Assembly: GCA_021779375.1 (NCBI GenBank)
Contig: JAJYAT010000002.1
Coordinates: 1 to 64,000, forward strand
Direction: 5' to 3'
DNA length: 64,000 nucleotides
DNA from: a bacterium
GTDB lineage: Bacteria > Patescibacteriota > Gracilibacteria > JAHISY01
Shown here: one piece after another, positions 40,308 to 45,137 of the stretch
How positions within the stretch are numbered: the stretch's first letter is position 1
How the letters are laid out: each line of letters starts with the position of its first letter
Made by a program: the position numbers and the translations under genes
Notes under the pieces: model-generated
Database searches by the model: none
The model's input: the letters and a program-made list of their open reading frames with translations, nothing else
Told to the model about the DNA's origin: nothing

Positions 40308-42677
40308 TTAGTTTTTGTAAAACTCCGGCAGAATTTTGGGCGGACGGACTGAGGAAATTTTTCCAAGTGTTTCGAGATCAGTGATTTTGATTTTGCCGAG
40401 GTAAAGTTTCTGAAGGTCACCACCATCTTCAGCGAACTTTTGAATTTTACGAAAACCGGAAAAGTAAATCGCTTCTTTCGTGAAGCCACCTTTTTGTGCC
40501 GTCTCAGTCAAACCACGTTTGATTTTTACTGCTGTTTTCCAGGCGCGCTCGTCGTCGAAGCCGAATTTTTTGACGAAATTAAAAATTCCCCGAAAGGATT
40601 TTTCCGCCGATTCAGCGACAGCGAGATAATTCAGTGCCGGCCAAAATTCTTTCTCGGAATTTTTGGCGAGAACTAAGCTTTGATTGAAAATCGCCAAGCC
40701 TTCTTCCGTCTCGAGATAATTGCCGAAACCCCGCGCGAAAATTTTGAAAGGCTGCGCACTGCCATTTTCACCGCGCAAAATGTGCGTCTCGATTTCGTGC
40801 GCGATTGTCGCGCGCAAACCTGCCGGTGACCAACGCGCCGCACGCCGTATGAAAAGCGTGCCGGATTTCCCGGCGAGCGCGTCCGCGACGAGGTCATCGC
40901 GCAAGGCAACTTTCCAATTTTTGAGACCATACTGGGCGAAGACCTTTTCGAATTCCCCTGCTACCATGGCGGAATCAAGTGTCGCACTTTCAGCTGGAAA
41001 TGTTTTTGGTTTGGCGGCGAGTTTCTTACGCGCGATGGCGAGATCTTCCTCGGTCGGAAAACCGTAAAGTTGCCTGGATTTCAGTGAAAATTCCGGCGTG
41101 CCAATCGCCGCAAGCAAATTAATTTTGCGGCGAATTTCAATTTTTTTGTCGCGAAAAATCGCGCCAAGTGGCGTCTCCGGGAGTTTGATCGCGACCAGCT
41201 CGTCGAGCAGATCTTGCGGCACAAAAGCTAATTTGCGATAAGTGAAAACCGGCTCGTATTTTTTGGAGGCAAAAAATTTCTCTTTTTCCGCAAGCAAATT
41301 GGTCGGCTTCAGGAAATACAGAAGCTTAATTTTCTTATCGAGCTCGGACAGCTTTTGGTCGATTGCGACGAAATCAATCTTAGACGAGACAGCGGAATCA
41401 TTTTCTTTCGGTAAAATTTTCTCATCACGCAAAACCGGATTAATGAGGAAATTGGTGAGATCGCGCCGACCAAGGATGATTTTGTAATTCGCCGAGCTAA
41501 GGTCGGTTTTTTCCGCGACGGTCGTGATGCGCTCGTCCGCAACGATAATTTTGAGGTGGACATTTTTGACGCTTTCGCCAACGCGCGGCAGATTCAATTT
41601 CTCAGCCAACTGCGCATCAACCGCGCTCGTCTCGTGCGTCGCATCGAGCTCGACTTTGACGCGGTAAATCAGATTTTCTTTGAGTAAAATTTCTGCCGAC
41701 TCGATAAAATCCACAATCTTTTTCTTGGGATATTTCCTTTGTTTTTGAATTTTACCGAAAAGCTCCTTGCCGAGCTTCACGCCTTTTTCCGGCGAATCAA
41801 CTTTCAAACCACGAATCCGTTCGAGGCGTTTTTTGAGCGGAGCGAGATTCGCGGTTTGCACTGACAAACCGGCACGCGCATTCACCTCAAGCAACACCGG
41901 TCCTTCTTTTTGGTCGACGACGACATCTGCCGCGAGGTAGCCGAGATTGGTGTGCAGCTGCGCCGCGCTGGCAATCGCGAGAATGCGATCGAACTCAGGA
42001 ATCACATAACCCGCCGTCGCCATACCGCCCGGCAATTCGTCGAGTCGGCGATTAAACTGGACGGCGTAAGTCGTTTTGCCGGAAGCCAGATCGATGCCGA
42101 GCCCGATTCCGCCGAGGTGGATATTCGCCTTGCCACCACTCACCGGCGTCGGCACACGAAGCATCGCCATGACCGGAATGAGGTTGTGGACGATGACCCG
42201 CACGTCCGGCAAACCTTCGACCGCCAAGCCCGGAATGAATTCGACCGAGTCAATGCGCGCCTCGAAAAAAGCGATATCCGGTAAATTGGCGATGGAATAT
42301 TCACCATCCAAAATATCCTCGATGTGCTCGCGCAATTCGGCTTCGGTGATTTTGGCACCGCCAACTTTTTGCCAAACACCATCGATAATTTTATCTTTCA
42401 CGACGATAATGCCCTCACCGCCGTAACCAGCGTTGGGCTTCAGCACGAATGAGTCCGGCAAACCGTCAAAATCAAACTTTTCAAATTCGGCGTGATTGCG
42501 AATCGTCGCAATAATCTTCGGGACAGGAATGCCGCGCGCCGCCAGAAAACGTTTTGTCGCCAATTTGGAGTCCGCCATCTGCACCGCCTTTTTGCGGTTG
42601 AAAGGATGGAGATACTGCAAATTCCGCGCATTGATTCCGAGAATACCGTGATTTTTGAAAAGCGAAAACGCCATCAA
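40308..42677 (-). CDS. ATP-grasp ligase (alpha-L-glutamate ligase-like) fused to DUF1704 carboxypeptidase-like domain
   Basis: FVLKPNAGYGGEGIIVVKD..LGYLAADVVVDQKEGPVLLEVNARAG; C-terminal IAHEIETHILRGENGS + ETEEGLA. Confidence 0.85.
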   Translation of the reverse strand: MMAFSLFKNHGILGINARNLQYLHPFNRKKAVQMADSKLATKRFLAARGIPVPKIIATIRNHAEFEKFDFDGLPDSFVLKPNAGYGGEGIIVVKDKIIDGVWQKVGGAKITEAELREHIEDILDGEYSIANLPDIAFFEARIDSVEFIPGLAVEGLPDVRVIVHNLIPVMAMLRVPTPVSGGKANIHLGGIGLGIDLASGKTTYAVQFNRRLDELPGGMATAGYVIPEFDRILAIASAAQLHTNLGYLAADVVVDQKEGPVLLEVNARAGLSVQTANLAPLKKRLERIRGLKVDSPEKGVKLGKELFGKIQKQRKYPKKKIVDFIESAEILLKENLIYRVKVELDATHETSAVDAQLAEKLNLPRVGESVKNVHLKIIVADERITTVAEKTDLSSANYKIILGRRDLTNFLINPVLRDEKILPKENDSAVSSKIDFVAIDQKLSELDKKIKLLYFLKPTNLLAEKEKFFASKKYEPVFTYRKLAFVPQDLLDELVAIKLPETPLGAIFRDKKIEIRRKINLLAAIGTPEFSLKSRQLYGFPTEEDLAIARKKLAAKPKTFPAESATLDSAMVAGEFEKVFAQYGLKNWKVALRDDLVADALAGKSGTLFIRRAARWSPAGLRATIAHEIETHILRGENGSAQPFKIFARGFGNYLETEEGLAIFNQSLVLAKNSEKEFWPALNYLAVAESAEKSFRGIFNFVKKFGFDDERAWKTAVKIKRGLTETAQKGGFTKEAIYFSGFRKIQKFAEDGGDLQKLYLGKIKITDLETLGKISSVRPPKILPEFYKN

Positions 42678-43153
42678 ATTTGATTCAAAAGCCCGCCCGC
42701 TGCAACGATGTTTTGTAAAAATTCAGGCAGCGGCTCAACTGTGAATTCAGTTTTTTGGGTCAAATTCTTGATTTTGGAATTAGCTAAATCAATCTCGATC
42801 GCATCGTTCTCGGCGAATTTGGCGGCAGCATCGGCGAGCACGAAAGTCGGCAAACCGAAATTGATTGAATTGCGGAAAAAAATCCGCGCGAATGATTCGG
42901 CAATCACGGCCTGGACGCCCGCACCGACGAGTGCCCACACAGCGTGTTCGCGACTCGAACCGCAACCGAAATTTTTGCCCGCGATTACGATTGGATTCTC
43001 AGCGGAATTTAACTTCGCGCCACCAAGTGCTTCGAGCGCATGCGCCGCAAGCTCGGCGGAATCCGACGAAGTCAGGTATTTCGCCGGGATGATCAAATCG
43101 GTATCGATATCGTCTCGTGCGAAAATTTGCGCGGAGCCAGAAATATTTTTCAT
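42674..43153 (-). CDS. leuD: 3-isopropylmalate dehydratase small subunit
   Basis: DDIDTDLIIPAKYL; GKNFGCGSSREHAVWAL. Confidence 0.92.
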   Translation of the reverse strand: MKNISGSAQIFARDDIDTDLIIPAKYLTSSDSAELAAHALEALGGAKLNSAENPIVIAGKNFGCGSSREHAVWALVGAGVQAVIAESFARIFFRNSINFGLPTFVLADAAAKFAENDAIEIDLANSKIKNLTQKTEFTVEPLPEFLQNIVAAGGLLNQI

Positions 43154-43239
43154 GGCGGCATTTTAGCAAATAGCGCGAACACAGGATTTGCTCGCGCGAA
43201 AAAAGTTGTCTAAAATTCAGCCAACTTAACCCCCGCAAA

Positions 43240-43491
43240 ATGAGCACTCCATTTAAATTGATTAAGGCAATCTACGTTTATGTAGCCGCTCTCGTCGGAC
43301 TGCTCGTCCTCGCTGCGGGCTTTTACGGTTTATTGGAATACATGCTGAGCATTCTTTTTATCAATGTGAGCTTCGATGCGATTTACGTCATCACTCCACT
43401 CACCCGCATCATCACCGGTCTACTCATCATGGTACCGCACTGGGCGATTGGTCATCATTTCCATCTGATTGAGCACAAAGCTAAAAAATGA
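43240..43491 (+). CDS. Small membrane protein upstream of leuA
   Basis: 83-aa ORF with two hydrophobic segments; upstream TTGCTC-N17-TAAAAT promoter. Confidence 0.65.
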   Translation: MSTPFKLIKAIYVYVAALVGLLVLAAGFYGLLEYMLSILFINVSFDAIYVITPLTRIITGLLIMVPHWAIGHHFHLIEHKAKK

Positions 43492-43535
43492 TTACACCTA
43501 AATTTTTTCTCGAGCTCCTTCTCCTCGGTTTTTGA
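43488..43535 (+). CDS. Candidate leucine leader peptide MITPKFFLELLLLGF*
   Basis: ATG overlaps previous stop (ATGA); codons CTC GAG CTC CTT CTC CTC before antiterminator/terminator. Confidence 0.8.
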   Translation: MITPKFFLELLLLGF

Positions 43536-43567
43536 GAGGCTCGATTTTTGTGAAATTGAAGCCTCTC
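43534..43567 (+). promoter_or_regulatory. Antiterminator stem (region A GAGAGGCT with region B AGCCTCTC)
   Basis: UUUUGAGAGGCUCGAUUU..AAAUUG-A-AGCCUCUCGAAA long pairing. Confidence 0.8.
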
Positions 43568-43585
43568 GAAACTGAGAGGCTTTTT
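43559..43585 (+). terminator. Intrinsic terminator of the leuA attenuator (B:C)
   Basis: AAGCCTCTC-GAAACT-GAGAGGCTT followed by T-run; B shared with antiterminator. Confidence 0.88.
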
Positions 43586-43601
43586 ATTTAAACTTCTTAA
43601 A

Positions 43602-45137
43602 ATGACTGAAACCATCAAAATTTTCGACACGACGCTGCGCGATGGCGAGCAGTGTCCCGGCGCGAGCTTGAATCACGATGAGAAATTGAAAATCGCGGCG
43701 CAGCTCGAAAAGCTCGGCGTCGACATCATCGAAGCGGGCTTCCCGATTGCGAGTCCGGACGATTTTCGCGCAGTCAATGAAATCGCCAAACTGGTGAAGA
43801 AGTCGACGGTCTGCGGTTTGGCGCGCGCGATTGAAAAAGACATTCAAACTGCTTTCGAGGCGGTCAAGCCCGCCAAGAAAAAACGCATCCATCTTTTTCT
43901 GGCGACGAGCGACATGCATTTGAAATACAAATTAAAGATGAGCCGCGCCGAAGCTTTGGTCAGAATCAAGGAAATGGTCAGCTTCGCAAAAAGCCTAACC
44001 GCTGACATCGAATTCAGTCCGGAAGATGCGAGCCGCTCTGATCCGAAATTTCTTTACCAAGCGCTCGAGATCGCGATCCGGTCCGGCGCGCAGACTCTGA
44101 ATATTCCAGACACCGTCGGCTATTCCACCCCGACTGAATTTGGTAATTTCATTAAAAATATTCGGAAAAATGTGCGCGGTATAAAAGATGTCGTAATTTC
44201 AGTGCATTGCCACGATGACCTCGGTCTCGCCGTCGCGAATTCGCTCGCAGCCGTCGAGAACGGTGCGCGCCAAGTCGAGTGCACGGTGAATGGTATCGGC
44301 GAGCGCGCGGGCAACACCAGCCTCGAAGAAGTCGTCATGGCACTCAAGACGCGCCAGGATTTTTTCAAGCTGAAGACTAATGTGAAACCGAAAGAAATTT
44401 TTCGGACAAGTCGCCTGGTCTCGAGTCTGACCGGTTTCGTCGTGCCACCGAATAAAGCCATCGTCGGCTCGAATGCTTTCGCGCACGAATCAGGAATTCA
44501 CCAGCACGGCATCTTGGCGAAACGCGAAACTTACGAAATCATGAAGGCCGAAGATGTCGGCGTCGAGCGAAACAGATTAGTACTCGGCAAACATTCCGGC
44601 CGCGCCGCGCTGATCGCGCGGATGAATGAGCTCGGATTCAAATTGACGCAGAACGAACTCGACAAAACTTTCGAGCGTTTCAAGCTTTTGGCAGACAAGA
44701 AAAAAGAAATCTTTGACGAAGATTTGGAAGCTTTGGTCGTGAATGAAATCTCCGAAGCGACCGCAGAATGGAAAGTCGAGTCAGTCGAAGTCACAGCCGG
44801 CACGGGCAAGAAACCGAGAGCTGAAATCGCGCTGCGCAATTCCGCCGGCAAGATTTTCAAGCAAAAATCGGGCGGAACTGGTCCAGTCGACGCTGCTTAT
44901 TCCGCGGTGAATAAAATCGTCGGCGAAAAAGTAAAGTTGCTCGAATTTCGCATGGACGCCGTGAGCGAAGGCATCGACGCCCAGGCGACGGTCGCGGTGA
45001 AAATCGAGACAGCGCAAGGACGGATTTATTCTGGCAAAGGCAGCCACACCGACATCGTCGTCGCCAGTGTCAAAAGTTATCTGAACGCGCTGAATAAAAT
45101 CATCGCAGGCAAAGAGCGACTGAAGGTGGTTTTATAA
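43602..45137 (+). CDS. leuA: 2-isopropylmalate synthase
   Basis: IFDTTLRDGEQCPGASLN; VHCHDDLGLAVANSLAAVENGARQVECTVNGIGERAGN; C-terminal regulatory domain. Confidence 0.96.
   Translation: MTETIKIFDTTLRDGEQCPGASLNHDEKLKIAAQLEKLGVDIIEAGFPIASPDDFRAVNEIAKLVKKSTVCGLARAIEKDIQTAFEAVKPAKKKRIHLFLATSDMHLKYKLKMSRAEALVRIKEMVSFAKSLTADIEFSPEDASRSDPKFLYQALEIAIRSGAQTLNIPDTVGYSTPTEFGNFIKNIRKNVRGIKDVVISVHCHDDLGLAVANSLAAVENGARQVECTVNGIGERAGNTSLEEVVMALKTRQDFFKLKTNVKPKEIFRTSRLVSSLTGFVVPPNKAIVGSNAFAHESGIHQHGILAKRETYEIMKAEDVGVERNRLVLGKHSGRAALIARMNELGFKLTQNELDKTFERFKLLADKKKEIFDEDLEALVVNEISEATAEWKVESVEVTAGTGKKPRAEIALRNSAGKIFKQKSGGTGPVDAAYSAVNKIVGEKVKLLEFRMDAVSEGIDAQATVAVKIETAQGRIYSGKGSHTDIVVASVKSYLNALNKIIAGKERLKVVL

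Follow-up and report, generated by a model that had tools for sequence, protein, structure and literature searches.

In the enterobacterial leuL leader, a short ORF with a run of Leu codons ends beside one arm of an antiterminator and is followed by a U-tailed terminator, with leuA as the first gene. Its rare leucine codon is CUA. The ilvB-II/ilvBNC uORF attenuator of Corynebacterium (PMC10272879) is built along similar lines: a uORF of 15-17 aa, rich in branched-chain amino acids (BCAA), stands with antiterminator and terminator stems before a Leu/Ile/Val pathway gene, in this case ilvB, and lies near the 5' end. The actinobacterial LEU element (PMC1262725) also places a Leu-run leader peptide before leuA; it folds as a pseudoknot, in whose base stem the Leu run is paired to the Shine-Dalgarno box of leuA. 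Here we analysed the region in front of leuA in a 64-kb window, by which we mean the whole stretch of 64,000 nucleotides, from a genome of the class Gracilibacteria. Judging from the sequence and from modelled RNA folds, positions 43488-43585 very probably form a ribosome-mediated transcription attenuator that tunes leuA to the charging of tRNA-Leu(GAG).

The locus shares with leuL the Leu-codon ORF, the stop beside the antiterminator arm, the U-tailed terminator and leuA as first gene. It differs in having only a weak 1:2 protector hairpin, in overlapping the stop of an upstream ORF and in favouring the antiterminator when untranslated. Rare leucine codons are discussed in the literature on the enterobacterial leader, whereas this leader uses CTC and CTT. 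The Corynebacterium attenuator has the same parts, but the present leader follows an upstream ORF and serves leuA. We rejected an assignment to the LEU element, because no Shine-Dalgarno-like sequence precedes leuA and a strong terminator stands there instead. At the gathering score, only tRNAs matched Rfam anywhere in the window (no leader family, T-box or riboswitch), and Leu_leader did not match the leader even at E 10. The best leader-type covariance match was to Phe_leader (RF01859), at 43490-43588 over the full-length model, with 29.5 bits against a gathering score of 55; that family has Phe codons and phe genes, while the window has Leu codons and leuA. The leader would function as a leucine attenuator and falls outside the Rfam Leu_leader sequence family.

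The features of the locus are listed in Table 1. The first-pass annotation had placed an ORF of 15 codons with five leucines within a stretch of six, arms A, B and C, a T-run and the leuA start, and all of these coordinates proved exact. The leucines occupy codons 8, 10, 11, 12 and 13, and the TGA lies at 43533-43535. The proposed overlap is likewise present: the leader start and the stop of the preceding 83-aa ORF share bases as ATGA. No Shine-Dalgarno sequence was seen before the leader ATG. When both strands were scanned for ATG ORFs 8-40 codons long that hold five or more leucines within a stretch of six, the leader was unique in the window. Order-1 Markov shuffles produced 0.23 such ORFs per window on average, a chance estimate that covers the 64-kb window only and not the whole genome, and none of 30 shuffled windows contained a Leu-run ORF followed by a terminator. 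Elsewhere in the window, a single ORF at 40308-42677 on the minus strand joins a PF14397 sugar-transfer-type ATP-grasp domain to a PF08014 MATCAP-type tyrosine carboxypeptidase domain, an unusual fusion.

Table 1. Features of the leuA leader region and its surroundings (window coordinates).
Feature	Position	Strand	Evidence
leuD, isopropylmalate dehydratase small subunit (transcribed divergently; shown for context)	42674..43153	-	LeuD/DmdB family TIGR02087, 158.4 bits, above cut-off
Candidate promoter TTGCTC-17-TAAAAT, 5' of the 83-aa ORF	43188..43216	+	Position; consensus match only
83-aa membrane-protein-like ORF, stop overlapping the leader ATG	43240..43491	+	Weak similarity to PF18920 (DUF5671), E 2.8e-5, 24.4 bits, under the 28.4 cut-off; orthologues before leuA
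Leader peptide ORF MITPKFFLELLLLGF*	43488..43535	+	Sequence; shuffles; homologous leader in sister genus (G005)
Regulatory codons CTC-GAG-CTC-CTT-CTC-CTC	43509..43526	+	Each Leu codon decoded by tRNA-Leu(GAG)
Arm A, antiterminator 5' arm over the leader stop; core GAGAGGCT at 43534-43541	43529..43549	+	Duplex and hairpin folding
Arm B, common to antiterminator and terminator; core AGCCTCTC at 43560-43567	43551..43572	+	Folding
Arm C GAGAGGCT at 43574-43581 plus T-run, terminator 3' half	43574..43585	+	Folding
leuA, 2-isopropylmalate synthase (regulated gene)	43602..45137	+	Profile search: TIGR00973, 733.6 bits (cut-off 598.7); PF08502 LeuA_dimer

Two mutually exclusive structures share arm B. 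Duplex folding of A with B gave 19 pairs and one bulge, so that the bulge described earlier stands and the count of about 18 bp is slightly raised. The core of the A:B hairpin reached -17.4 kcal/mol (z = -4.9), or about -22 kcal/mol when extended, and arm A paired better than shuffled versions of itself (z -3.4). The competing B:C hairpin (43558-43583) is an intrinsic terminator of 11 pairs and -15.8 kcal/mol (z = -5.4) that runs into the T-run at 43581-43585; it lies between the leader ORF and leuA, 16-18 nt 5' of the latter. The entire leader folded with z = -3.9. A 1:2 hairpin was also considered as a fourth, protecting segment: 43508-43546 can form one of -12.1 kcal/mol, and shuffles match its stability (z -0.78).

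To model the ribosome, we set its 3' edge 11-15 nt past the first base of the A site and folded the remaining RNA. In silico, A:B was the optimal fold when the A site held Leu 8, 10 or 11, even in the presence of C. At Leu 12 the result varied with the assumed footprint. From Leu 13 through the stop the terminator won, and at the stop itself only B:C formed. Duplex and footprint folding therefore reproduced the switch between A:B and B:C and supported the ribosome-position logic that had been suggested for it. The predicted optimum of ribosome-free RNA was A:B, which means that an untranslated leader would by default be read through. The textbook trp leader differs in this respect, readthrough not being its untranslated state.

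A plausible course of events begins with RNA polymerase, which probably starts upstream of the 83-aa ORF, and with a ribosome that would translate the 15-codon peptide while the leader is being transcribed. Under a shortage of charged tRNA-Leu, the ribosome would stall on the CTC/CTT run, leaving A free to pair with B; the B:C terminator could then not form and leuA would be transcribed. With ample leucine, a ribosome at the TGA inside A would cover A, B:C would form and transcription should end before leuA. Overall, the hallmarks of an attenuator were found at this locus: a codon run matching the pathway, an intrinsic terminator, an exclusive antiterminator with its 5' arm at the leader stop, selection between the two by ribosome position (in silico only) and pairings conserved in relatives, although the leader is absent from congeners.

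Codon choice points to one particular tRNA as the sensor. The genome encodes one tRNA-Leu gene each for the anticodons CAA, UAA, CAG, UAG and GAG, the last of which would read CTC and CTT, and all five Leu codons of the leader are CTC or CTT. In all Leu leaders that we found (see below), these two codons made up 109 of 147 Leu codons, compared with 255 of 578 in the genes downstream. That attenuator leaders have biased codon usage is known, and PMC1183508 discusses what this does for sensitivity.

The comparison with orthologous leaders gave a divided but favourable answer. In its favour, the sister genus (G005) carries the leader MQKQLLLLELLLLRD* after an orthologue of the 83-aa ORF, in the same layout and with an A:B hairpin and a terminator; the two leader regions have 78% mean column identity and common L-E-L-L-L-L codons. 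Distant Leu and Ile leaders with matching A and B arms also exist. On the other hand, the leader ORF was found in none of the four congeners (G001-G004). An 83-aa orthologue precedes leuA in G001, G002, G004 and G005; the first three of these retain it together with a plain terminator and no leader, and G003 has a different gene upstream and neither leader nor terminator. The absence of the leader from the closest relatives is the main weakness of the attenuator reading, which is itself a prediction from sequence. The simplest reading of this distribution would be a leader in the family ancestor followed by at least two losses, with transfer or regain as alternatives. In G004 (L006), an A-like arm GAATTTGAGAG facing CTCTCGAATTC was noticed by eye directly 3' of the stop of the 83-aa orthologue, and that orthologue could itself gate the terminator.

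The plain terminators of G001, G002 and G004, at the equivalent place and with no leader ORF, raise the question of whether the hairpin in the window is simply a constitutive terminator of the 83-aa gene, the Leu-rich ORF being fortuitous, a decayed remnant or unused. We regard this as very improbable. Because no promoter-like match of its own lies near leuA, a constitutive terminator 16-18 nt ahead of the gene would silence it; moreover, the leader and arm A are intact and homologous to those of G005, and the full arrangement was missing from shuffles.

We searched for LeuA in 359 genomes of the class, retrieved the upstream regions and scanned them blindly for runs of each of 19 amino acids 5' of LeuA/CimA-family genes. 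Leu-run ORFs preceded 16 of 45 LeuA genes (2.5 expected from shuffles). Among the 24 CimA genes, 10 had an Ile-run ORF in front (expectation no higher than 0.2), and no LeuA gene had one. The two-by-two specificity of Leu for LeuA and Ile for CimA gave a Fisher p of 1.4e-5, which is optimistic because related genomes are not independent. Another 14 genes scored too low for confident assignment, seven of them with Ile runs; the five of these seven that were scanned against NCBIfam all fell under both the LeuA and the CimA cut-offs, and their substrate is therefore uncertain. L143, taken as representative of the genes behind Ile leaders, encodes a citramalate synthase (TIGR00977: 450.6 bits, cut-off 450).

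We quantified the coevolution of the arms in 37 leaders by pairing the leader-stop region with the region of the terminator 5' arm. The mean A:B energy was -20.4 kcal/mol for the leaders' own partners and -13.6 +/- 0.6 (sd) for permuted ones, and 0 of 5000 permutations attained the mean of the own partners; the similar leaders of near relatives weaken this permutation test rather than strengthen it. The A region beat its own dinucleotide shuffles at p < 0.05 in 32 of the 37 leaders. Some short terminators escaped the automatic terminator finder, and arms were probably mis-assigned in L131, L135 and L138, whose elements contain extra repeats. Four Leu leaders (L129, L131, L135 and L137) contain an in-frame repeat insert like CCCTGAGCNNNGTCGAAGGG, which adds PALS.VEG-like residues. 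In genome G169, which has in-frame TGA codons and seems to decode TGA as an amino acid, a leuA-like gene (L162) lies behind the AT-rich Leu leader MKNITTTSLLLLLVNS*, whose A, B and C arms match.

Leaders of this kind also occurred before other genes and outside the class. In other families, leaders with WW and terminators precede trpE, such as MHQYNTPRRLGWWQALTQSAVR* in L181 and MIRTNTTWWNWNQKSRF* in L190; the WW leaders with terminators 5' of trpE are those of L176, L181, L183, L186, L187, L188, L190, L191, L195, L204 and L208. Several of them are preceded by GTAC-rich repeats resembling a TrpR-type operator. Patescibacteria of other classes have leuA behind the leaders MKTFTQQLGLLLGLLLLLDFRSGSFVSV* (L264), MKTINQSLLLLGLFTCFPLGG* (L265) and one with QLLLGLSGL (L266), with a terminator after each leader. 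The attenuation logic for Leu, Ile and Trp thus appears to exist in these reduced bacteria and to be widespread among them.

Alternatively, the leader ORF might control leuA in a non-classical way, for example through nascent-peptide arrest or translation control like that of the LEU element. Leu-run ORFs in front of leuA can act in such ways: mutation of the similar-looking ilvB and leuA leaders of Streptomyces coelicolor reportedly did not give the results expected of classical attenuators (PMC1262725). For the present locus we consider such control very improbable, given the strong U-tailed terminator between leader and gene, the lack of a leuA Shine-Dalgarno sequence for the Leu run to pair with, and peptides that vary widely across families while keeping the amino acid that matches the pathway. 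We also rejected, as extremely improbable, the idea that selection kept the CTC/CTT run for its RNA pairing with A and that the Leu content is a by-product: the 1:2 hairpin that it would form is no better than shuffles, and before cimA the leaders have Ile runs, so the amino acid follows the pathway.

How the attenuator is transcribed and translated seems to differ among leaders. Matches of at least 9/12 to TTGACA/TATAAT ended 4-12 nt, usually 8-11 nt, before the ATG in 26 of 38 leaders (hand-counted). Promoter boxes this close to the ATG suggest that the mRNAs begin within a few bases of it and would be leaderless. A leader peptide made without a ribosome binding site has reportedly been described for C. 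glutamicum ilvBNC, in work that PMC10272879 cites. Directly 5' of the window leader, the best match to the same boxes was 7/12 and badly placed, and the adjacent match in G005 was only 6/12. TTGC.C-17-TA.A(A/C)T occurs at the place equivalent to the candidate promoter in G002, G004 and G005, and its -10 box also in G001. The transcription unit of the window and of G005 therefore likely starts 5' of the 83-aa ORF, and translation of the leader would then need ribosomes that complete that ORF. Such coupling is consistent with the lack of a nearby promoter of the leader's own and with the juxtaposition kept in G005. The 83-aa ORF, a small DUF5671-like membrane ORF, adjoins leuA in five of the six genomes of the family.

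Considering all leaders together, we are inclined to think that CPR bacteria that keep amino acid synthesis commonly use ribosome-mediated attenuation for it, with separate Leu (leuA), Ile (cimA) and Trp (trpE) leaders; that most BCAA leaders are read from leaderless mRNAs starting within a few bases of the leader ATG; and that in the branch of the window the leader was shifted to, or kept in, a place behind an upstream ORF and is now being lost.

The genome itself (1,073,675 bases in 14 contigs, 98% complete) bears out the first-pass annotation's suspicion of a reduced, CPR-type genome, being of 1.07 Mb and of the class Gracilibacteria. Its LeuA is 81-87% identical to those of the nearest named relatives, MAGs of Ca. 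Gracilibacteria and Ca. Peribacteraceae. With leuD beside leuA and leuC-like, ilvC and citramalate synthase (cimA) genes in the genome, the pathway is present to be regulated. No other attenuator was seen in this genome before cimA, the leuC-like gene, ilvC or trpE. Its own trpE-family gene (L196, G000:C4:63183-64484), with no Trp leader seen, has by eye an apparent chorismate-mutase-like N-terminal extension.

The mechanism is ordinary and already known; what is apparently new is that CPR bacteria have it, how broadly it occurs among them and how the amino acids match the pathways. In the open-access literature searched, we found nothing relevant on attenuation or leader peptides in CPR, Peregrinibacteria, Gracilibacteria or Patescibacteria, which is no proof of novelty. 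The usual picture of CPR bacteria is one of reduced symbionts living on imported amino acids, as inferred for the class Peribacteria in PMC4736985. A sensor of tRNA charging kept on leuA would imply real leucine synthesis in this lineage, adjusted to supply, and an attenuator there would imply transcription-translation coupling tight enough for attenuation. Matching Leu, Ile and Trp leaders may likewise predict which CPR lineages make these amino acids and respond to their shortage. Finally, the genus would offer a series from an intact attenuator to a plain terminator in which the loss of such a switch can be studied.
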